Origin: Acidobacteriota bacterium
GTDB taxonomy: Bacteria > Acidobacteriota > Thermoanaerobaculia > UBA5066 > Gp7-AA6
Length of the DNA: 48,643 nucleotides
Direction: 5' to 3'
NCBI GenBank assembly: GCA_027307335.1
Contig: DAHUXD010000057.1
Coordinates: 1-48,643 of the forward strand
Positions 6,595 through 18,560 of the stretch are shown piece after piece. The notes beneath the pieces are model-generated. The model was not told the DNA's origin. It saw only the letters and a program-made list of their open reading frames with translations, and did no database searches. Position 1 is the first letter of the stretch, and each line of letters opens with the position of its first letter. Both the position numbers and the translations under genes were made by a program.

Positions 6595-9159
6595 TTACCT
6601 CTGCACCTGGTACTGCGACGACGTCGCGACCAGATAAAGCGCCTGGCGGGCGCGTTTCAACGTGTCGGTCGACGGCGAGACCGCCTCGACGGCCGTGACG
6701 ATCGAGCTCCGCATGTTGTCGGACATGGTGCCGTGCAGCAGGAGCCGATTGAGACGATCGACGAGGTTCGCGGAGTTCGGCGCGAGCTGCTGCAGCTCGG
6801 TAAAGTCGATCGAAGTTCCGTTCGGCTGGTAGCAGGACGACACGCTGCAGGAAACGCCGAACGTCGCGAACACGACCGTGTTGACGAAGTTGGCGCGCTT
6901 CAAAGAGGTCGACGCGTCCATGATGCCGAACTCGGGCCCGAGGAGACCGGCCGACGCCGGCGGGGCGAGGAACGCCTGCGGGTAGTAGCTGAAGACCGTG
7001 GACGGCTTGAAGATCTCCTGGCCCTGATCGCGCGTGCAGTTGGTGCACGTCGAGAGGGCGCCGTCCGACTGCGTGCTGCGGTTGGCCGACTGCGCATTGA
7101 AGGCGCGCAGGATGCCGAGCTCGTACTGGGCCGGATCCTTCAGCTTGCCGAAGTTCGGATCGCCGGAGTCGACGCGGGCCTCGGGGTCGAGGAGGATGGC
7201 CTTCACGACGGCCCACAGGCTTCCGCGCGTTCCCGACCCGTTGTCGTTGAAGAACCCCGCGACCCTCTCGATGTAGCCGGCCGACGGGTTCGAGGTCACG
7301 AGGCTGTGGATGAGCTCCCGCGACAGGTACGGGCCGACATTCGGGTGATTGAAGAGGGCGTTGAGCGCCGCGGTCAGGTCCTGGTCGCCCGTCTGGCCCG
7401 CCGGGATGATCGTGGGGGTGCCGTCGCCGTTCTGGTTGGGCAGGAACGGCTGCGCGCCGCCCACGTCCTGGACGAAGAGGTCCTTCTCGGTCGTGTCGTG
7501 CTGGACGGCCTTGAGCGTCATCGGGCTGATGTAGTCCGGAGCCTGCTCGCCGGTGTCCCCGGCCAGCGGAGGCACCGAGACCTGCGGGATGTACCAGCCG
7601 GTGAAGACGAGCTTCATGTTGTCGATGACCGACTGGTCGTAGGACGGCAGGGGCAGACTCGAGATCGGGTCGTTCTGCGTCGTGCCGTCCTGGTTGAGCA
7701 GCACCGTCCCGATCGAGAAGAGCTGCATGATCTCGCGGGCGTAGTTCTCGTTCGGGTTGCCCTTGGTCGACGAGTCCATGTTGAGGAAGTCGCCCATGGC
7801 CGGGTTCAGGGTCAGATTGTTCAGGATGTCGCTGTAGCTGCCGAGCGCGTTGCTGTAGAGGATGTTCAGGTACGGAATGACCTGTGCCGGCTGCGTGATC
7901 GTGTTCGTCGAAACGACGTCGAGCTTGTGGAGCGCGAAGAAGACGCGCTGCCGCAGCTGATCGGGCTGATAGAGGGCGTTCCGGAAGAACGTCGTGTAGA
8001 GCGGGTACGTGGAGTAGTTGTCGCGGCGGCAGTTCGGCGGGTTGGCGCCGGTGCCGTCACCGCAGCCCGAGGGGACGCCGCTCGGGACGAGGTTCTGCGC
8101 CGGGAAGAGCGACGCCGTCGCCTGGTGCTGCGCCGCGAGCCACGGCAGGACGCCCTGACCGAGCACGGCCGAGATGTCCGAATCCGTCGGTCCCCAGGTG
8201 GCCTGCTCGAGGAGCCGCGTGGCCTCGGGGCGGTGGAACGTCTTCGCGAGGAAGACCGCCATCTGGCCGCGCGTGACCGAGCTGCTCGGACAGTACTGCG
8301 TGCCCCCGCAGCCGGTCGTCACGTAGAGGCGCGCGAGCTCCTCGACCCAGGGCGCGAAGGGGCTCGAGACCGGCACGTCGGAGAAGACGCCGGTGGCGGC
8401 GGGCGGGGCGTAACCGGTGCCGTGGTAGATCTTCAGGAGGAAGACCGCCATCTGGCCGCGCAGGACCGATGAGGACGGGCAGTAGTTCGGCGGAGAGCCC
8501 GCCTGGCAGCCGCCCGTGATCCCCTCGGCGTAGAGCTGCTCGATCCAGTCCGCGGCGAAGTCGCCGATGTGCACGTCGCCGAAGATCGTGCCGGTCGCGG
8601 GAGGCGGCACGTAGGCCGGGCCGTGCTCGGCGCGGAGCAGGAACACCGCCATCTGCGCGCGGGTGATCGACGAGCTCGGGCAATAGTTGCCGCCGCCGCA
8701 TCCCGCCGTGATGCCGTCGCGGATGATCGTCTCGACGGGCGCGTGGTACGGGCTCGCCTGCGCGACGTCGCCGAAGTCGGAGAACCAGCCCTTCGGGATC
8801 ACCGATGCCGGTCCGCCATTGTTGACGATGACGTCGTACAGCGCGCCCGCCGCGAGGCCCGGGCTCGTCGCCTTGATCAGCGTCGTGCTCGTCACGACGC
8901 CGCCCGCGCCGACGCCGCCGATCGTCACGGTGGCGGACGGCGAGAACGCATTTCCGACGAGATTGATCGCCGTGCCGCCGGACGCCGGGCCCGAGGTGCC
9001 CGAGACGTACGCGAGCTGGAAGGGCGTCGAGGTCGTCGCGCCGAAAGCGCTACCCGCGGACTCCGGTCCGAGGGTCGCGAGAATCGTCGCCATGCCCGGG
9101 ACGACGACTCTCGCGAGGAGCGAGGAGAGGGAGGATCGGCCAAAGGGTCGTTCTCTCAT
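6595..9159 (-). CDS. Surface protein: TIG domain, three SLH repeats and DUF1800
   Basis: About 854 residues. Order: signal/hydrophobic N terminus (1-40), IPT/TIG Ig-like domain (about 46-125), three S-layer-homology repeats (about 128-310, each with TRAQMAVFL or RGQMAVFL), then a full DUF1800 domain (from about 312, RPEATRLLEQATWGP) with its NENYAREIMQLFSIG signature. SLH repeats usually bind cell-wall or envelope polymers, so this anchors a DUF1800 protein to the surface. All three repeats carry a GC...YCP cysteine pair. A GTG at 9165 gives two more residues, but the AAAGGA site is only three bases from it and nine from the ATG at 9159, so I prefer the ATG. It is co-transcribed with DUF1501 downstream. 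Confidence 0.93.
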   Translation of the reverse strand: MRERPFGRSSLSSLLARVVVPGMATILATLGPESAGSAFGATTSTPFQLAYVSGTSGPASGGTAINLVGNAFSPSATVTIGGVGAGGVVTSTTLIKATSPGLAAGALYDVIVNNGGPASVIPKGWFSDFGDVAQASPYHAPVETIIRDGITAGCGGGNYCPSSSITRAQMAVFLLRAEHGPAYVPPPATGTIFGDVHIGDFAADWIEQLYAEGITGGCQAGSPPNYCPSSSVLRGQMAVFLLKIYHGTGYAPPAATGVFSDVPVSSPFAPWVEELARLYVTTGCGGTQYCPSSSVTRGQMAVFLAKTFHRPEATRLLEQATWGPTDSDISAVLGQGVLPWLAAQHQATASLFPAQNLVPSGVPSGCGDGTGANPPNCRRDNYSTYPLYTTFFRNALYQPDQLRQRVFFALHKLDVVSTNTITQPAQVIPYLNILYSNALGSYSDILNNLTLNPAMGDFLNMDSSTKGNPNENYAREIMQLFSIGTVLLNQDGTTQNDPISSLPLPSYDQSVIDNMKLVFTGWYIPQVSVPPLAGDTGEQAPDYISPMTLKAVQHDTTEKDLFVQDVGGAQPFLPNQNGDGTPTIIPAGQTGDQDLTAALNALFNHPNVGPYLSRELIHSLVTSNPSAGYIERVAGFFNDNGSGTRGSLWAVVKAILLDPEARVDSGDPNFGKLKDPAQYELGILRAFNAQSANRSTQSDGALSTCTNCTRDQGQEIFKPSTVFSYYPQAFLAPPASAGLLGPEFGIMDASTSLKRANFVNTVVFATFGVSCSVSSCYQPNGTSIDFTELQQLAPNSANLVDRLNRLLLHGTMSDNMRSSIVTAVEAVSPSTDTLKRARQALYLVATSSQYQVQR

Positions 9160-9232
9160 CGGCACTGGTCCTTTCTGGACAGCCGTCCGCGCAAGATTGA
9201 TTTGTATTGGTGTCGGGCATTCTAGGGGCGGG

Positions 9233-9288: not shown

Positions 9289-9434
9289 AGCCGAGGTTAC
9301 GGCGGCCGGGGCCGCGCCGCGACTGTTCGCGCGTGCCGAAGAAGGACAGGTGCCCGACGCGTCCCGGGCTCGTCCTTCTGGTCAGGTGCTCCGCGGGCGT
9401 GCGCCGCCTCATAATGCTTTCGGACGATCCACCG

Positions 9435-11378
9435 ATGAATCCGTTGACGCGGGGCGCGACATTTTTCGCGCGGACGGGGCTCCTCCTCGCCGCCGCGGGG
9501 GCCGCCGCGGCCCAGACGATGCCGCCGCGTCTCGAGGCGGGACTCCCCGGGCCCTCGCTCGCGAACGCGACGAACTGGTGGGGGACCGACGTGTCGGCCG
9601 CTCCGGTCGACGGCGGGTCGGACGCCTTCATCGCGTACATCAACAACGGCAGCCCGCGGCCCCTCCACCCGGACTTCGGCGGCACGCTTCCGGACGGCGT
9701 CTCGATCTACGGCTTCCCCTACGCGGTGGTCGACGGCGGCCAGCCGAAGAAGACCGTGCAGTTCGCGCAACCCGACGAGAGCGACGGCGTCGACCACTCG
9801 ACGCAGACGTCGTACCCGTTCTACCCGATCCCCGACGCCGCGATCACGCAGCCTCACTGGATCGAGGGCGGCGATCCGGGTTCGATCGACGACACCGGAA
9901 CCGAGGACCGGCACCTGCTGATCGTCGATCGCGACAACCGCCATCTCTACGAGCTCTACAACGTCTGGTGGGACGGATCTCAGTGGACGGCGTACTCCGG
10001 CGCGTTCTGGGACCTGAAGACCGACGACCGCCGCCCCGACGGATGGACGTCGGCCGACGCCGCCGGGCTCGACATTCTTCCCGGCCTCGTTCGCTACGAC
10101 GAGGTGTACGGCCGGGACGAGATCCGCCACGCGTTCCGCTTCACGGTCCGCCACACGAACGGCTACCGGTATCCGGCCTCGCACCTCGCCGGACCGCAGG
10201 TCTCCGGCGCGCCGCCGATGGGCATGCGGATGCGCCTGAAGGCGTCGAAGGACATCTCGGGCTTCGATCCCGCCATTCAGAAGATCTTCCGGGCGATGAA
10301 ACGGTACGGCCTGATCGTCGCCGACAACGGCACCGACATGTACGTCAGCGGCACCTGGGACGACCGCTGGGACAACGACGTCCTCAATCCGGCGTTCGCC
10401 GCCCTGACGGCCTCCGACTTCGAGGTCGTGCAGCTCGGCTGGCAGCCGCCGCTCGCCGCCGCTCTCGCCGTCGACCGGCGCGCGGGCGGATCGTCGAACG
10501 AGAACGGGATCCTCGAGCCGGGCGAGACCGCCGTCGTCGAGCCGTCCTGGGAGAATCCGCCGTCGGGCTCGGCCGCGCTCGCGGGCGCGGCCTCGGCGTT
10601 CGGCGGCCCTTCCGGCGCGGCATACACGATCGCCGACGGCACCGCGGCGTACGGGGCGCCGCCATTCGGCGCGCCGGCGAGCTGCTTCGACGCGACGGGC
10701 GACTGTGATGCGCTCGGCCTTTCGAACCCCTCGCCGCGTCCGGCGCTCCACTGGGACGCCGTCTTCACCGAGACCGTGAACGGAACCGCCGCGAAGACCT
10801 GGACGCTGCACGTCGGGGGCAGCTTCGCCGACGTCCCGGCGAGCGACTCCTTCTACGCGAAGGTCGAGACGCTGTTCCACAACGGCATCACCGCGGGGTG
10901 CAGCGGGTCCAACTACTGTCCCGCGGATTCCGTCACGCGCGCGCAGATGGCCGTCTTCCTCCTGAAGGGCAAGCTCGGATTCGTCTACGGGCCGCCCGCC
11001 GGAAGCGGAACGCGCTTTCTCGACGTGCCGACGGGTTCCTTCGCCCTCGACTGGATCGAGGACCTCGCGGACAGCGGCATCACGGCGGGCTGCGACGCGT
11101 CGCTCTACTGTCCCGACGCCGCCGTCACGCGCGCGCAGATGGCGGTCTTCCTGCTGAAGGCGAAGCACGGCAGCGCGTACGCGCCGCCGCCGGCCGCCGG
11201 CGTCTTCGCCGACGTCCCGGTCGACAGCAACTTCGCGCCATGGATCGAGGAGCTGGCCGCCGAGGGAATCACCGCCGGCTGCGGCGGGGGCAACTACTGT
11301 CCCGACGCACCCAACACCCGCGCGCAGATGGCCGCGTTCATCGACGCGACGTTCGGGCTGAGTCTGTATGGTCCTTGA
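9435..11378 (+). CDS. Secreted protein of unknown N-terminal domain with three C-terminal SLH repeats
   Basis: A 647-residue exported protein. Signal peptide about 1-28 (ATFFARTGLLLAAAGAAAAQ), a large N-terminal region (about 29-370) rich in Trp/Tyr/Asp with blocks such as ATNWWGTDVSAAPVDG, ELYNVWWDGSQW and DMYVSGTWDDRWDND, a linker region, and three SLH repeats in the last 150 residues, each with a GC...YCP pair and TRAQMA. The large domain is not one I can name; its repeated aromatic/acidic blocks suggest a beta-rich fold, possibly carbohydrate-related (inference). Start set at the ATG giving a clean signal peptide; an ATG at 9414 adds seven residues and neither has a strong ribosome site. 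Divergent from the DUF1800 operon. Confidence 0.85.
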   Translation: MNPLTRGATFFARTGLLLAAAGAAAAQTMPPRLEAGLPGPSLANATNWWGTDVSAAPVDGGSDAFIAYINNGSPRPLHPDFGGTLPDGVSIYGFPYAVVDGGQPKKTVQFAQPDESDGVDHSTQTSYPFYPIPDAAITQPHWIEGGDPGSIDDTGTEDRHLLIVDRDNRHLYELYNVWWDGSQWTAYSGAFWDLKTDDRRPDGWTSADAAGLDILPGLVRYDEVYGRDEIRHAFRFTVRHTNGYRYPASHLAGPQVSGAPPMGMRMRLKASKDISGFDPAIQKIFRAMKRYGLIVADNGTDMYVSGTWDDRWDNDVLNPAFAALTASDFEVVQLGWQPPLAAALAVDRRAGGSSNENGILEPGETAVVEPSWENPPSGSAALAGAASAFGGPSGAAYTIADGTAAYGAPPFGAPASCFDATGDCDALGLSNPSPRPALHWDAVFTETVNGTAAKTWTLHVGGSFADVPASDSFYAKVETLFHNGITAGCSGSNYCPADSVTRAQMAVFLLKGKLGFVYGPPAGSGTRFLDVPTGSFALDWIEDLADSGITAGCDASLYCPDAAVTRAQMAVFLLKAKHGSAYAPPPAAGVFADVPVDSNFAPWIEELAAEGITAGCGGGNYCPDAPNTRAQMAAFIDATFGLSLYGP

Positions 11379-11399: not shown

Positions 11400-12824
11400 C
11401 TAGCCGCGCGCCGGGAGCTTTCCCTTCGCGTAGACGAAGACGCCGATCCCGAGCATCGCCACCGTCAGACCCACGACCTTCACGACCGCCAGAGCCTTGT
11501 GGGGCTCCTCGTCCGGGGGGAGGAGCGAGAGGACGATCGAGACGAGCGTCGTTGCGAGCCCGACGGCGCCGAGAACGGCGACGCCGAGCGCGCCCCCGGG
11601 AATCCAGAATCCCGGCACCTTCGCTTCCGCGCGGAGCTTGATCGCGGCCGCGAAGAGGTAGAGGAACGGGATGAAGTACCAGATGATCGTCATGCTGACG
11701 AGCGCGTCGTAGGCGCCGCGCACGGACGTGCCGGCCTGGCCGAGAAAGACGAAGACGGCCGTGATCAGAGCCTGCGAGACGAGCGCGACCCAGGGCGTCC
11801 CCCACCGCGGGTGGATGCGGGCGAACCCCTCCGGCAGGTAGCGGTCGAGTCCCGCGACGAAGGGGATCCGCGCCACCGACGCGAGCCACGCGCCGACGCT
11901 CCCGAGCGCCGTCACCGTGACGAGGACGGCCGCCACGGGCGAGAGGCCGGAGACGCCGATGCGCGCCTCCGCGCGCGCGATCGCCTGCACGATTCCCTGG
12001 AGGCTCGTGACCTCGGCGGCCGGAAGCGCGATCAGCACGCTCACCGTCCCGGCCAGGTAGATCGCCACGATGATCGGGATCGAGACGAGGATCGCGCGCG
12101 GGACCGTGCGGCGCGCGTCGCGGATCTCGTCGCCGAGGAACGAGGCCGATTCGAGTCCGGTGAGCGCGAACGCGATCGTGGACCAGAAGACGACGTCCTT
12201 GAAGTGCGTGCCGGGCACGAGCGCGCGCGCGGTGAACGCGGTGGCGGATCCGAGCCGCGAGAGCGCGGCGACGCCAATGCCGATCAGGAGCGCCGTCGCG
12301 AGCCATCGGGCGATCGCGCCGACGTTCGACAGCCACTTGCCGATCTCGATGCCGACGACGTTGACGACGGTCGCGACGGCGAGCCCCGCCAGCGACGCGG
12401 CGATGAAGTAGGGCGCGCTCGTCGAGAGGGCGGTCCAGCGCGGGCCGCCGGCGTAGAGCGCGTTGCCGGCGGCGAAGTAGAGGACGGCGGGGAAGTAGGG
12501 CAGGTTCGACATCCAGTAGGACCACCCCGTGACGAAGCCCGCGAAGTCGCCGAAGGCGAGCTTCGTCCAGACATAGACGCCGCCCTCCTCGGGATGGCGG
12601 GAGGACAGCGCGATCACGCAGACGCCGAGCGGGGCCGCCATCGCGAAGAACCCGATCGCCCAGACCGTCAGCGCGGAGGCGCCCCCCGCCGCGGCGGTCG
12701 CGACCCACTGCAGGTTCGTGCCGGCGGTGATGAGGAACAGGAGAACGTCGCGGAACCCGAGGTTCCGGTGGAGACCCGCCGCACGCGCGGCGAGGGGTAC
12801 GTCGGAGTTTTCGAGCTCGGCGAT
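11400..12824 (-). CDS. APC-superfamily amino-acid/amine permease; no canonical start codon
   Basis: A 12-helix-type importer of amino acids or related amines (APC/AGT-like), about 474 residues. Helix 1-2 region FRDVLLFLITAGTNLQWVA and WAIGFFAMAAPLGVCVIAL and the loop HPEEGGVYVW are typical of the superfamily. The first ATG (12641) falls inside helix 2 and would delete helix 1. Between it and the upstream Rieske stop (12846-12848, same frame) no ATG, GTG or TTG occurs. The sequence around 12824 reads ATC GCC GAG CTC GAA, exactly where homologues would be expected to begin Met-Ala-Glu-Leu, so I place the start at this ATC. It ends 21 bases from the convergent SLH gene. Position next to Rieske genes suggests import of the methylated amine they oxidise. 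Confidence 0.82.
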   Translation of the reverse strand: MAELENSDVPLAARAAGLHRNLGFRDVLLFLITAGTNLQWVATAAAGGASALTVWAIGFFAMAAPLGVCVIALSSRHPEEGGVYVWTKLAFGDFAGFVTGWSYWMSNLPYFPAVLYFAAGNALYAGGPRWTALSTSAPYFIAASLAGLAVATVVNVVGIEIGKWLSNVGAIARWLATALLIGIGVAALSRLGSATAFTARALVPGTHFKDVVFWSTIAFALTGLESASFLGDEIRDARRTVPRAILVSIPIIVAIYLAGTVSVLIALPAAEVTSLQGIVQAIARAEARIGVSGLSPVAAVLVTVTALGSVGAWLASVARIPFVAGLDRYLPEGFARIHPRWGTPWVALVSQALITAVFVFLGQAGTSVRGAYDALVSMTIIWYFIPFLYLFAAAIKLRAEAKVPGFWIPGGALGVAVLGAVGLATTLVSIVLSLLPPDEEPHKALAVVKVVGLTVAMLGIGVFVYAKGKLPARG

Positions 12825-12845
12825 GCCGCCGAGCGTAGCAGAGGC

Positions 12846-13916
12846 CTACGCCCTCAGCGCCGCGGCGAGGAGACCGTGGAAGTGGTGGACGCCGTTCTCG
12901 CGGCGCACGGAGTAGCGCCCGCGGTCGTACGTGCGGGATCCGAGCCCCTTCTGCACGGCCTCGCAGACGGCGACGTCCTCCCGCTGCACCTCTTCGGCGA
13001 GCGCGAAGGAGCGCGCGAACTCCTCGGAGGCGCCGGGACGGTCCGGCTCGAGGAGGTACCACTCGAAGCGCGTCCGCGTCCTCTCGGGGGAGAGCGGCAG
13101 GACGAGGTTCGTCTGGAGGTTGTCCGGGTAGAGGTTGAGCATCAGGTTCGGGAACACCCAGTAGTAGAAGGCCTCGGCGCCGCCCCCGGCCGCTCCGTCA
13201 CCGGTGCGGAGGGGGGCGTGCTGCTTCGAGTGGCTGCCGGCGGTCTCGACCGCGTACGCGCCGTAGTCGAGCCGGCGGAAGAGCCCGGGGTGCACGATCG
13301 GGATGTGGTACCCCTCGACGTAGTTGTCGACGTACACCTTCCAGTTGCACGCGATCTCGTCGTCCACCGTCCGGACGCGGCGCATGCGCTCGAGCGGCAG
13401 GTGCGCCGTCTCGTCGATGATCGCGCCGAGCGCCGCCGGGAGGGAGGGCGCGGCCGGGTCGAGACAGACGAAGAGGAAGGGGCCGAAGCTCTCGACGCGC
13501 ATCGAGGGAAGGCTTTCCGCCGCCGGATCGAATCGGCGGACGCCCTCCCAGTCGGGCATCGACTGCAGGCGGCCGTCGAGCCCGTAGATCCAGCCGTGAT
13601 ACCCGCAGCGGAACGCGCGGCGGCGGCCCGCGCCCTGGGCGACGGGACCCGCCCGGTGGCGGCAGACGTTCGAGAACGCGCGGATCGTCCCGTCCTCGAC
13701 GCGGACGACGACGAGCGGCTCGCCCGCGACCTCCGTCGTGAAGTAATCGCCGTCGCGCGCCACCTGCTCCGCGCGGCCGACGAGCTGCCACGTCCGCGCG
13801 AACACGCGGTCGCGCTCGAGGGCGAAGAGGCCCGGATCGCGATACCAGGAGGCGGGCAGCGTGGACGCCTCGGCGACGTCCGGCTCGAACCGGAACGCCT
13901 CCGGGTCGGGGGTCAC
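12846..13916 (-). CDS. Rieske non-haem iron oxygenase, alpha subunit (choline/betaine monooxygenase-like)
   Basis: A 356-residue oxygenase. The Rieske [2Fe-2S] motif is complete (Cys85-x-His87 ... Cys104-x2-His107, in CRHRAG and CGYHGW), and the mononuclear iron site shows DNYVEGYHIPIVHP (His204, His209). Such enzymes hydroxylate or demethylate small amines or aromatics with O2 and need an external reductase; none is encoded nearby. Starts at a GTG overlapping the tetR stop (GTGA). No ordinary start codon follows for the downstream permease. The neighbours (betaine-homocysteine methyltransferase, amine-oxidising flavoproteins) point to quaternary-amine substrates rather than aromatics (inference). 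Confidence 0.9.
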   Translation of the reverse strand: MTPDPEAFRFEPDVAEASTLPASWYRDPGLFALERDRVFARTWQLVGRAEQVARDGDYFTTEVAGEPLVVVRVEDGTIRAFSNVCRHRAGPVAQGAGRRRAFRCGYHGWIYGLDGRLQSMPDWEGVRRFDPAAESLPSMRVESFGPFLFVCLDPAAPSLPAALGAIIDETAHLPLERMRRVRTVDDEIACNWKVYVDNYVEGYHIPIVHPGLFRRLDYGAYAVETAGSHSKQHAPLRTGDGAAGGGAEAFYYWVFPNLMLNLYPDNLQTNLVLPLSPERTRTRFEWYLLEPDRPGASEEFARSFALAEEVQREDVAVCEAVQKGLGSRTYDRGRYSVRRENGVHHFHGLLAAALRA

Positions 13917-14623
13917 ACGCGGCGTTCCCTGCCGGCCGCCCGGGGACGGGACGGCGCCCGCGCCGCGATCGCGCCGGCGAGCAGGTCGAGGAACTGCTCG
14001 ATGCGAGCCGCGGTCTTCTCCGCGCGGTTCCCCTGGCGGGAGAAGAGGCCGGGATCGAGCTCCTCGGTCAGCAGCGCGTCCTGGAAGCGCTCGACCGTCC
14101 ACTCGAGGATCGAGACGATCATCGCCTGGTCGACGTCCGGCCGGACCTCGCCGCGCTCGACGCCGAGGCGCACGAAGGCCGCGGTGCCGTACGGATCGTT
14201 GTCGCGGAGAAAGCGGTTGATCTCCTGCCGCAGCTTCAGGTCCGTGCCGTAGTTGCCGAGGAGCGCGATCCGGTAGGGGATCCAGTCCTCCCGCACGAGA
14301 CGGTCGGTCCGCTCGAGCCAGTAGCGCAGGGTCGCGAAGAAGCCGCGGGCGACGACCTCCGCGGGCGCGTCGAGCCAGGCCGGAAACGAGCGCACCGCCT
14401 TCTGGTACCCGGCCAGGAAGAGGCCCTCCTTCGTGCCGAAGTGCTGGAAGACCGAGCCCTTCGCGATCGAGAGCTCGCGGGCGACGTCCTCGATGCGCGT
14501 GTCGTGGTAGCCGCGCTCGGCGAAGCGACGCATGGCGGTCTCGAGGATGAGCGCGCGTTTCGCCTCGGTGCGGGACGGCGCGCCGGCGGCGCGGGGCAGG
14601 GCGGGAGAGGTGCTGGTTTTCAT
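13913..14623 (-). CDS. TetR/AcrR-family transcriptional regulator
   Basis: A 236-residue repressor-type regulator. The helix-turn-helix domain is at about residues 22-70 (ILETAMRRFAERGYHDTRIE, then SIAKGSVFQHFGTKEGLF), followed by a helical ligand-binding domain and an Arg-rich tail. It is first in the minus-strand tetR-Rieske-permease unit and divergent from the oxidoreductase genes at 14698, so it probably controls both arms. An imperfect palindrome overlaps its own start (14623-14635), and the absence of a ribosome site, with a -10-like TACGCT just upstream, suggests an autoregulated, nearly leaderless transcript. The ligand is probably the island's substrate; unproven. Confidence 0.93.
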   Translation of the reverse strand: MKTSTSPALPRAAGAPSRTEAKRALILETAMRRFAERGYHDTRIEDVARELSIAKGSVFQHFGTKEGLFLAGYQKAVRSFPAWLDAPAEVVARGFFATLRYWLERTDRLVREDWIPYRIALLGNYGTDLKLRQEINRFLRDNDPYGTAAFVRLGVERGEVRPDVDQAMIVSILEWTVERFQDALLTEELDPGLFSRQGNRAEKTAARIEQFLDLLAGAIAARAPSRPRAAGRERRV

Positions 14624-14697: not shown

Positions 14698-16314
14698 ATG
14701 ACTCGCGATCAGAAGCGCCGGTCCTACGACGCGATCGTCGTGGGCGCCGGGCACAACGGCCTGACGGCGGCCGCGTACCTCGCACGGGCGGGGCTCACGA
14801 CGCTCGTGCTCGAGCGCCGCGCGATCGTCGGCGGGGCGTGCGTCACCGAGGAGATCGCGCCGGGCTGCCGCGCCTCGACGACCTCGTACATCGCGAGCAT
14901 GCTCCGGCCCGAGGTCATCCGCGATCTCGGCCTCGCGCGGCACGGACTCAGGATGGTGCCGTGCGATCCGGCGCTGCTCGTGCCTTTCTCCGACGGCGCC
15001 GCGGTCGCGTGGTGGTCCGATCGCGAGCGGACCGTCCGCGAGCTCGCAAGGCTCTCTCCGGCCGACGCCCGCACGTTCGTGCGCGTCGACGAGGAGCTGA
15101 AGAAGCTCGCGCGCTACCTTCAGCCGTTCTTCCTCGAGCCGCCGCCGGACGTCGGCGCACGGGGGCTCGCCGGGCTCGTCGAGGCCCTCCGCGTCGGGCG
15201 CCGCTTCCGCGGCATCACCGGCGCCGAGATCGGCCGCATGGTCGCGTTCTTAACCGGGAGCCTCGGCGACTTCCTCGACCGCAACTACGAGTCCGAGAAG
15301 GTCAAGACGCTCCTCCTCGCCAACAACGTCTACGGCAAGCACGGCGGCCCGTACGCGCCGGGCACCGCGCTCGGGCTGCTCTTCCACCTCCTCTCGGGAG
15401 GGGAGCACGGGCTCCAGGGCTTCTACGGCCACGTCCTCGGCGGGATGGGCGCGATCACGCAGGCGATGGCCGCCGCGGCGGGAGGGTTCGGCGCGGAGAT
15501 CATCACCGGTGCGTCGGTCGCGCGCATCGCGGTCGCGAACGGGCGCGCGCGCGGCGTCGTGCTCGAGGACGGGACCGAGATCGGCGCCCGCGTGGTCGTG
15601 TCGAACGCCGATCCGAAGCGCACGTTCCTCGGCCTGCTCGAGCCGTCGGCGCTCCCCGCGGACTTCCGAGCGGCCGTCGCCGGCATCAAGATGGACGGTC
15701 CCTGCGCGAAGGTGAATTTCGTGCTCGCCGAGGAGCCCCGCGTCACCGCGATGCCCGCGGGCTTCACGACGCCTCAGCGCGCGCTCTTCACGCTCGTGCC
15801 CTCGCTCGACTTCGCCGAGCGCTGCTACAACCTCGCGCGCGAGGGGGAGCTCCCCGAGGAGCTCTGGGTCGACTGCGTCGTCGCGTCGAACGTGGATCCT
15901 TCGCTCGCGCCCCCGGACCGCCACGTCATGACCTGCTTCGTGCAGTACGTCCCGTACCGCCTCCGCGAGGGCACCTGGGACGAGAAGCGGGAGCTCCTCG
16001 GCGACCGCGTCGTGAAGAAGATCGGCGAGTACGCGCCGAACGTCCCGGGCGCCGTCGTCGCGCGGCAGGTGCTGACGCCGCTGGATCTCGAACGCACGTA
16101 CGGGCTGACCGAGGGCAACATCTTCCACGGCGACCTCTCGCTCGAGCAGCTCTTCTTCCTGCGGCCCGTCGGCGGCTGGGCGCGTTACCGGACGCCGGTC
16201 GAGGGCCTCTACCTCTGCGGCGCGGGCGCCCATCCCGGCGGCGGCGTGACCGGCGCGCCCGGCCACAACGCGTCGCGGCAGGTGCTCCGCGACTGGAAGC
16301 GGCGGGCCGCGTGA
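14698..16314 (+). CDS. Phytoene-dehydrogenase-like / PYROXD2-like FAD oxidoreductase
   Basis: A 538-residue flavoprotein of the CrtI/PYROXD2 (COG1233) type. The N-terminal dinucleotide fold is clear: YDAIVVGAGHNGLTAAAYLA (GAGHNG at 16-21), an acidic end to the second strand (VLERR), and GGAC. The C-terminal flavin-binding GLYLCGAGAHPGGGVTGAPG is typical of the family. Despite the name, many members are not carotenoid enzymes. No other carotenoid gene is here, so a role in oxidising a demethylation intermediate or an amine is more likely. First gene of the plus-strand arm, overlapping the next gene by four bases (GTGA), so co-translated with the DAO-type oxidase. Confidence 0.9.
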   Translation: MTRDQKRRSYDAIVVGAGHNGLTAAAYLARAGLTTLVLERRAIVGGACVTEEIAPGCRASTTSYIASMLRPEVIRDLGLARHGLRMVPCDPALLVPFSDGAAVAWWSDRERTVRELARLSPADARTFVRVDEELKKLARYLQPFFLEPPPDVGARGLAGLVEALRVGRRFRGITGAEIGRMVAFLTGSLGDFLDRNYESEKVKTLLLANNVYGKHGGPYAPGTALGLLFHLLSGGEHGLQGFYGHVLGGMGAITQAMAAAAGGFGAEIITGASVARIAVANGRARGVVLEDGTEIGARVVVSNADPKRTFLGLLEPSALPADFRAAVAGIKMDGPCAKVNFVLAEEPRVTAMPAGFTTPQRALFTLVPSLDFAERCYNLAREGELPEELWVDCVVASNVDPSLAPPDRHVMTCFVQYVPYRLREGTWDEKRELLGDRVVKKIGEYAPNVPGAVVARQVLTPLDLERTYGLTEGNIFHGDLSLEQLFFLRPVGGWARYRTPVEGLYLCGAGAHPGGGVTGAPGHNASRQVLRDWKRRAA

Positions 16315-17507
16315 GTCGCGAGCTGCCGAAGGCGGCCGACGTCGTGATCCTCGGCGCGGGCGTGATGGGAGCGTCGATCGCGTTCCACCTCGCGCGCCGA
16401 GGGGCCGGGCGCGTGCTCGTCCTCGACAAGGCCGACGTGGCGTCGGGCGGCAGCGGGCGCTCGTCGGCGCTCGTCCGCATGCACTACAGCTTCCCGCCCG
16501 AGGTGGACCTCGCGGTGAAGAGCCTCGAGATCTTCCGTTCGTGGAAGGACTACGTCGGACGCGACGGGCACTTCCGCGAGACCGGCTTCGTGCGGATCGT
16601 GCCCGAGAAGGAGATCCCCCGACTCGAGAAGAACGTCGCGATGCAGCGCTCCCGCGGCGTCGACGCGCGCGTGGTGTCGCGGCAGGAGCTGCGCGAGATC
16701 GCGCCGGCGTGGAACGTGGACGACGTGCCGAAGGCGGCGTGGGAGCCGGGCTCCGGCCACGGGGACGGCGCCGGCGTCGCGGCCGATTTCCTCGAGCGCG
16801 CGCGGGAGATGGGCGTCGAGTACCGATCGCAGACGCGCGTGGCCGCGTTCGCCGTCGAGGGCGGGCGCCTTCGCGGCGTCCGCACGGACCGCGGCGAGGT
16901 CGCGGCGCCGCGCGTGGTCGCGGCCGCGGGGCCCTGGAGCCGGCCGCTTTTCGCCGCGGTCGGCTTCGACCTGCCGGTCGAGGGCGAGTACCACGAGGTC
17001 GCGATCCTGAAGGACCCGCCGGGACTGCCGCGCGTGGGGCCGGCGTGCATCGACGGCGTCACGACCACCTACTTCCGGCCCGAGGTCGGCGGGCTGACGC
17101 TCGTCGGCGACTTCTGGGGGAAGCGGGGCGCCGATCCGGACGCGTTCCCGCAGTCGCCGTCGCCGGACACGCTCGCGGAGCTCGTCGGCCGGGCGGTCGG
17201 GCGCGTGCCCGCGCTCGAGGACGCGGCGATCTGGCGCGGCGTGACCGGCGTCTACGACGTCAGCCCGGACTTTCGCCCGCTGATCGGCCCGGTCCCCGGC
17301 GTCGAGGGGCTGTTCACGGTCTGCGGCTTCTCGGGAATGGGCTTCAAGATCTCGCCCGCCGTCGGGCTGTGCGTCGCCGAGCGGCTCCTCGACGGGAGGG
17401 CATCGAGCGTCGACATCTCCGCGTTCGATCCGGAGCGGTTCGCGCGCGGCGCCCCGATTCATGCGGAGTGGGAATACGGCGACGAAGAACCCGCGGCGTA
17501 CACATAG
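16311..17507 (+). CDS. DAO-family FAD oxidoreductase (sarcosine/dimethylglycine oxidase-like)
   Basis: A 398-residue flavoenzyme of the D-amino-acid-oxidase family (COG0665, sarcosine oxidase beta-like). GAGVMG (residues 15-20) lies in VVILGAGVMGASIAFHLARR, and GGSGRSSALVRMHYS follows, a flavin-contacting loop seen in sarcosine oxidase beta/GlpD-like proteins. The C terminus has PLIGPVPGVEGLFTVCGFSG, the usual second FAD block. It would oxidatively remove N-methyl groups or deaminate a secondary amine. Starts at a GTG overlapping the preceding stop. The stop codon shares its last base with a large inverted repeat. The neighbouring BHMT-like gene fits a betaine to dimethylglycine to sarcosine route. 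Confidence 0.9.
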   Translation: MSRELPKAADVVILGAGVMGASIAFHLARRGAGRVLVLDKADVASGGSGRSSALVRMHYSFPPEVDLAVKSLEIFRSWKDYVGRDGHFRETGFVRIVPEKEIPRLEKNVAMQRSRGVDARVVSRQELREIAPAWNVDDVPKAAWEPGSGHGDGAGVAADFLERAREMGVEYRSQTRVAAFAVEGGRLRGVRTDRGEVAAPRVVAAAGPWSRPLFAAVGFDLPVEGEYHEVAILKDPPGLPRVGPACIDGVTTTYFRPEVGGLTLVGDFWGKRGADPDAFPQSPSPDTLAELVGRAVGRVPALEDAAIWRGVTGVYDVSPDFRPLIGPVPGVEGLFTVCGFSGMGFKISPAVGLCVAERLLDGRASSVDISAFDPERFARGAPIHAEWEYGDEEPAAYT

Positions 17508-17566
17508 GGTCAGGTCTCTCAATGGTGAATTCGGTCGCGTGAGATCACCTTTGAGAGACCTGACCC
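17507..17566. repeat. 60-bp inverted repeat, 22-base arms (REP/MITE-like)
   Basis: Arms 17507-17528 and 17545-17566 are complementary over 22 bases with a single mismatch; the outer 16 bases (GGGTCAGGTCTCTCAA and its reverse complement) are perfect. The loop is 16 bases. It begins at the stop codon of the DAO gene and ends just before the ribosome site of the next gene. GGGTCAGGTCT-type termini recall mobile palindromes linked to REP-associated (RAYT) transposases, from memory; no transposase is nearby. It could instead act as an operon-internal RNA hairpin. Confidence 0.8.
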
Positions 17567-17579
17567 CAAAGGAGGAGAC

Positions 17580-18560
17580 TTGAAGAAGAGCATCCTCGAC
17601 CGGCTCAAGGAGGGTCCCGTTCTCGGCGACGGCGGATACCTGCTCGAGCTCGAGAAGCGCGGCTGGGTGCGCGCCGGTCCGTTCACTCCCGAGGTCGCGC
17701 TGACGCGCCCCTCGGCGCTGCGCGAGCTCCACGACGAGTTCCGCGAGGCCGGAGCGGAGGTGCTCCAGGCGCTGACCTTCTACGCGAGCCGCGACAAGCT
17801 CGCCACCGTCGGCCTCGCGAACCGCCTCGAGGACCTGAACCGCGCCGCCGTCCGCATCGCCCGCGAGGCCGCGGGCGACCGCTGCCTGGTCGCCGGGAAC
17901 ATCTCGCTCACCTGGATGTACGAGCCCGACAGCCCCGCCGCGGTGGATCGCGTGCGGCGGACGTTCGACGAGCAGCTCGCCGTGCAGGTGGACGAGGGCG
18001 TCGACTTCGTGATCGGCGAGACCTTCTCGTTTCTCGGCGAGGCGCTCCTCGCCGTCGAGCGCGCGAGGGCGACCAGGCTCCCCGTGATGGTCACGGTCTG
18101 CTTCGAGAACCAGCCCGTCACGACCGACGGCCACACGGCCGCCGACTGCGGGCGGGCGCTGCAGGACGCCGGCGCGGACATCGTGGGCATCAACTGCCTG
18201 CGCGGGCCCGAGACGACGCTGCCGCTGATCGAGGAGATGCGGAAGGCGGTGAAGGGGTTCGTCGCGTGCCAGCCCGTCGGATACCGCACGCCGCCCGACC
18301 GGCCCGACTTCACGAGCCTCGAGGCCTTCCCGTTCGAGCTCGACCCGCTGCAGCACTCCCGGCGCGAGATGGCGCGGTGGGCCGAGCAGGCGCGGGACCT
18401 CGGCATCGACTACATCGGTTCCTGCTGCGGCTCGGTCGCCGCGCACGTCCGCGAGATGGCGCGCGCGCTCGGCAAGCTCCCGCAGGAGAACCGCGAGTGG
18501 AAGGTCGACTACTCGAAGCCGATGTCGGCCTACGAGTACTACCGGCACGAGGGAAAGTAG
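17580..18560 (+). CDS. Betaine-homocysteine S-methyltransferase-like enzyme
   Basis: A 326-residue zinc methyltransferase of the homocysteine S-methyltransferase (Pfam PF02574) family. The zinc cysteines are all present: Cys206 in GINCLRGP and Cys282-Cys283 in IGSCCGS, matching Cys217/299/300 of human BHMT. The start GDGGYLLELEKRG resembles the family's DGG opening. The enzyme moves a methyl group from glycine betaine (or a similar methyl donor) to homocysteine, giving methionine and dimethylglycine. Start is TTG with AGGAGG close upstream; no ATG is nearby. Located between the DAO gene and the second Rieske gene, it supports a methyl-amine catabolic function for the island. Betaine is the best guess, not proven. 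Confidence 0.88.
   Translation: MKKSILDRLKEGPVLGDGGYLLELEKRGWVRAGPFTPEVALTRPSALRELHDEFREAGAEVLQALTFYASRDKLATVGLANRLEDLNRAAVRIAREAAGDRCLVAGNISLTWMYEPDSPAAVDRVRRTFDEQLAVQVDEGVDFVIGETFSFLGEALLAVERARATRLPVMVTVCFENQPVTTDGHTAADCGRALQDAGADIVGINCLRGPETTLPLIEEMRKAVKGFVACQPVGYRTPPDRPDFTSLEAFPFELDPLQHSRREMARWAEQARDLGIDYIGSCCGSVAAHVREMARALGKLPQENREWKVDYSKPMSAYEYYRHEGK

Follow-up and report, generated by a model that had tools for sequence, protein, structure and literature searches.

A probable AUC initiation codon in a permease gene of an Acidobacteriota bacterium, with the layout of a leaderless gene

We find that an APC-type amino acid permease gene in a 48,643-nt stretch of DNA from an Acidobacteriota bacterium (the window) has no canonical start codon, and that it is probably a real gene whose initiation codon would be AUC (ATC at 12824-12822, reverse strand). 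On the sequence, this ATC is the best candidate start, and the best supported of the four options raised in the original prediction, namely an ATC start helped by translational coupling, readthrough of the preceding stop, a mutation of the start codon, and a sequencing error. The permease frame (12845-11403, reverse strand) runs for 481 codons directly after the TAG (12848-12846) of a Rieske oxygenase gene, up to a TAG at 11402-11400; read from the ATC, the ORF occupies 11400-12824 and has 475 codons with the stop. Reading of the frame bore out what had been noticed earlier: the Rieske stop and the permease share a frame; no ordinary start lies between it and the first in-frame ATG (12641-12639, codon 69, in the string ‘FFAMAAPLG’ within helix 2), as codons 1-68 are free of ATG, GTG and TTG; and the ATC, codon 8 counted from the Rieske stop and 21 nt beyond it, is followed directly by GCC GAG CTC GAA. 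The coding signal upstream of the first ATG, GTG or TTG was measured with a codon-usage score trained on long ORFs of the same genome. By this score, coding sequence in the permease frame begins at about codon 4, and a start at the first canonical codon would cost 27.7 nats, the second largest loss among 1805 predicted genes (2.384 Mb, 55% of the genome) and the largest among 614 in an 815-kb sample, where the next gene loses 14.0. From the Rieske end to codon 25, the other two forward frames offer a start only in the +1 frame (GTG at 12784-12782, bounded by a TGA at 12856).

The permease closes a run of genes on the reverse strand. A TetR-family regulator (13913-14623; PF00440, 2.1e-15) precedes the gene for the Rieske oxygenase alpha subunit (12846-13916; PF00848, 6.9e-41; PF00355, 1.7e-21), whose GTG start overlaps the TetR stop. 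The permease itself matches PF13520 (2.1e-45; 155.9 bits, against a curated cut-off of 27) and PF00324 (2.5e-28); compared with the NCBIfam equivalog for GadC-type antiporters, it scores 156.1 bits, under the cut-off of 650. The Rieske protein is similar to glycine betaine monooxygenase GbcA, far under the cut-off of that family. Past the TetR gene, on the opposite strand (14698-18560), lie FAD oxidoreductase-like and homocysteine S-methyltransferase-like genes, and their closeness to the GbcA-like Rieske gene suggests methylated-amine catabolism. Since in related genomes (L017, L020, L029, and L038) Rieske genes likewise adjoin APC permeases, it is plausible from gene order that the Rieske protein and the permease form a unit for transporting and oxidizing a methylated amine or amino acid. 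On the other side, the window holds neighbouring genes for SLH-domain proteins (6595-9165, reverse strand, and 9414-11378, forward strand), one of them fused to DUF1800; the second is convergent with the permease.

The internal ATG at 12641 was considered as a start and rejected, as it would remove helix 1 and the invariant residues between 47 and 62. The AA_permease_2 Pfam match begins at codon 48, and when the permease is aligned with six relatives, seven residues upstream of the ATG (W47, A49, A51, A52, G55, S57, and W62) are invariant; the ATG is therefore not the start. A homologue search covering 396 genomes from the phylum, in which the nearest relatives share 51-60% identity, points the same way: in all 12 of the nearest homologues (L042-L053), helix 1 is preceded by a canonical start, between about codons -4 and 23 in permease numbering. 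A start at the internal ATG is therefore not credible. The original prediction would have been overturned by homologues that truly begin at this ATG, and the 12 nearest do not. The ATC at codon 8 falls inside the range of homologue starts; ahead of helix 1 the homologues' tails vary and do not align. Two more distant homologues from one genus (L060 and L061) have CTG AGC in common near the start position: in L060, an AGGAGG lies 8 nt upstream of it and there is no canonical start, and L061 has a GTG at codon 22 besides.

The sequence before the ATC resembles that of leaderless genes. Among 577 well-defined starts of the same genome, 86 have TANNNT 6-10 nt upstream, which is a leaderless-type layout, and 131 have Shine-Dalgarno (SD) matches of at least 5 nt. 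An extended -10-like element, TGCTACGCT-C (TGC-TACGCT-C, 12840-12831, hexamer at 12837-12832), ends 7 nt upstream of the ATC, the spacing found in leaderless genes here. With a -10 position weight matrix (PWM) trained on the 577 starts, from which the permease was left out, the hexamer scores 7.46 bits, a value reached at 6-10 nt by 72 of the 577 starts, by 42 of 3462 controls (positions 20-45 nt further upstream), and by one of 1160 intragenic, in-frame ATC codons; it is a moderate score, reached by about 1.2% of upstream control positions. No match of at least 3 nt to AAGGAGGTGATC was found before the ATC in the stretch searched for an SD. The permease thus has the features of a leaderless gene (a -10 element at 6-10 nt and no SD), and also the feature that marks AUN starts of the infC and pcnB kind, AUC in place of any canonical start; the strong, compensating SD of those genes is absent.

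A second gene has the same layout. In a PAS histidine kinase gene on contig C9, we observed TAAAAT-CGTCCC-ATC, with the -10 element six nt before the ATC, and the first canonical start is at codon 58, within the first PAS domain. In both cases (the permease, 12822-12848, and the C9 kinase, near 78429) the ATC lies 21 nt past the stop of an upstream gene on the same strand; this common spacing may be a coincidence. In 40 frames with a coding loss above 5 (736 codons), four codons have such a -10 element at 6-8 nt, and two of the four are ATC, which makes up 26 of the 736 (p ~0.007, calculated by hand and post hoc, the test having been devised after the first case). Across all 1249 genes, -10 enrichment before ATC is weak (4 of 477 ATC codons, against a background of 0.37%, at a stricter setting and with both cases included), so the case rests on the genes that lack a canonical start. 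Some other high-loss frames were set aside by eye: the TrmH-like C31:111232 and the gnd-like C22:13391 are uninformative because an ATG further in suits them, and others, C31:53891 and C65:43911 among them, look spurious. No clear start codon was found in the start-less frames C22:59156, C18:135153, C51:5343, C31:129504, and C62:10686.

Near-cognate starts recur elsewhere in the genome and in its relatives. In eight of the ten start-less frames scanned, a Pfam domain begins ahead of the first canonical start (a PAS kinase, two Ser/Thr kinases, an RluB-like protein, Pth, RsmH, the head of a poly(A) polymerase, and Sua5); the remaining two (M29 and a beta-lactamase fold) are uninformative. For about eight of the genes examined, some of them essential, the apparent start is ATC, ATT or CTG, and CTG seems to be used for pth, the rluB-like gene, and a kinase. 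The pth gene (L247, L248, and L249) lacks ATG, GTG and TTG in all three genera of one family: at its start, AAGGAGAAGTAG or TAA is followed by CNN-CTG-CGC-GCN-ATC-GTC in G000 (the present genome), G002, and G001, so that a CTG shortly past the upstream stop is common to all, and in the next family (G004 and G006) TTG takes the place of CTG. In other genera of the order, pth has ATC, ATT or ATA near the start (L263, L259, and L252). For rsmH, we observed ATT GAG AAC in G000 and a stretch without a canonical start in G002; most of 20 genomes have ATG or GTG, and the stretch printed for G015 also lacks a canonical start. In infC, compared across the 18 of 30 loci shown by a motif search (G001 is masked by N there), G000 and G002 have TGA-AAG-ATC after GGAGGTGA, with the TGA in frame, and G004 and G006 have AGGAGG, then ATC GAC, with no canonical start. 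On contig C6, a Ser/Thr kinase frame (L198:6473-9034) begins TGC ATC ACG CTC TCG GCG GGT, with its kinase domain from codon 13 and its first ATG at codon 24; here ATC seemingly stands in the place of Met.

We weighed several other explanations for the permease start. The ATC stands where a leaderless ATG should be, and the 12 nearest homologues all keep a canonical start, as would be seen if a former ATG had recently changed to ATC in this lineage, leaving the gene silent or expressed in traces. Such a loss is unlikely: the 481-codon frame is intact and normal in codon usage, and with a second gene of the ATC layout and several conserved near-cognate genes there is less need for it. The true codon might also be ATG, with 12822-12824 wrong in the assembly or consensus, or representing a minor strain variant. 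The genome is a draft of 65 contigs and base 12822 is known from one assembly, but the substitution would have had to hit this base and, independently, the ATC of the PAS kinase, and three separate genomes have no canonical start for pth; we consider this explanation improbable. Starts at ATC, ATT or CTG in separate genomes argue against sequencing error as a general cause, leaving the single base 12822 unproven. Because near-cognate starts recur, the error and pseudogene readings are weakened in general, not for this base. Two options of the original prediction, a mutated start and a sequencing error, keep some probability at 12822 and become less likely given the other conserved genes, and pth in two related genera, that have no canonical start.

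A one-base assembly indel could instead hide a start at the GTG at 12784 in the +1 frame. This GTG corresponds roughly to codon 21, close to where the homologues L009, L047, and L052 start, but codons 8-24 favour frame 0 over +1 (2.2 against -1.7 nats, a weak difference), and by eye neither an SD nor a TANNNT is suitably placed before it; we think an indel very unlikely. We give equally little probability to initiation from a different near-cognate codon, namely ACG (codon 4) or CTG (codon 36 or 45), or from ATG 12641. The apparent use of CTG elsewhere in the genome speaks for the former, but both CTG codons are within helix 1, ACG is absent from the start codons listed in a review (PMC4611024), and the ATG is disfavoured by the loss of helix 1 described above. 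Readthrough of the TAG into a Rieske-permease fusion, for which the shared frame is the one argument, is extremely improbable: the Rieske catalytic domain ends normally ahead of the TAG and a -10-like site lies between the two genes, so this part of the original prediction was not supported. Its proposal of an ATC start is favoured by the homologue starts, by the -10 element at 7 nt, and by the ATC of infC; help from translational coupling over the 21 nt between the Rieske stop and the ATC is possible from their arrangement.

If the permease does start at the ATC, transcription would begin on its A or one base before, so that the mRNA would have no leader or almost none, and translation would be started on the 5′-terminal AUC by the ordinary initiator tRNA(CAU), with low efficiency; IF3 probably restrains initiation there. 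On transcripts extending out of the Rieske gene, reinitiation at the AUC, which lies 21 nt beyond the Rieske stop, may contribute as well. Three CAU tRNAs were read in a search for a special initiator tRNA (26 of 30 loci cut, from 45 matches), with nothing odd in any of them; one (L115) we take to be an ordinary-looking initiator candidate. Because the initiator looks ordinary, no special decoding machinery was found. Deinococcus deserti reportedly uses non-canonical initiation codons, going by the title of a 2010 paper by Baudet, and would then resemble the present case in having unusual starts within a leaderless-rich phylum.

Leaderless genes have been reported in three of three Acidobacteria, at 13.3% (PMC3160421), and the permease is like them in its -10 spacing and lack of an SD. 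It differs from the leaderless genes of mycobacteria, which in the reporter experiments cited work with ATG or GTG only, ATC being the negative control (PMC4633059); a leaderless AUC is for this reason not expected. Behind an SD, ATC keeps only 0.2% in the same reporters (PMC4633059). According to the review, AUC is among the start codons of bacteria, IF3 rejects AUU, AUC and AUA, and AUG on leaderless mRNAs is not replaceable by other codons (PMC4611024). Since leaderless ATC fails in the mycobacterial reporters and IF3 rejects AUC, low-level synthesis of the permease, or extra reinitiation from Rieske transcripts, is likely. Among AUN starts, infC and E. coli pcnB are the two AUU cases cited in one source (PMC1780047). 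The permease is like these genes in presenting an AUN codon to the initiator tRNA, and infC of the same genome starts with ATC; but that infC has a strong SD (GGAGGTGA), whereas the permease has none and its -10 element would put the codon at the 5′ end of the mRNA. In Staphylococcus aureus, infC starts with AUA and there are two further non-canonical sites, the only three in the passage cited, and all three have an extended SD (PMC13009471), unlike the permease.

A search of the open-licence literature found no paper on a leaderless mRNA with an AUC start codon, which is not proof that none has been published. If a leaderless AUC is truly used here, the requirement for AUG or GUG at the 5′ end in leaderless initiation would not hold universally, and what IF3 does on leaderless mRNAs would become testable in a new group. 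More tentatively, and with rather more doubt than confidence, we suggest that this lineage initiates on leaderless AUC and regularly uses CTG, ATC and ATT for about 1% of its genes, including the essential pth and rsmH, and that standard gene callers cut these genes short or overlook them. Callers limited to ATG, GTG and TTG would make the permease 61 codons too short, without its first helix, and other conserved genes of the clade would likewise be called short.
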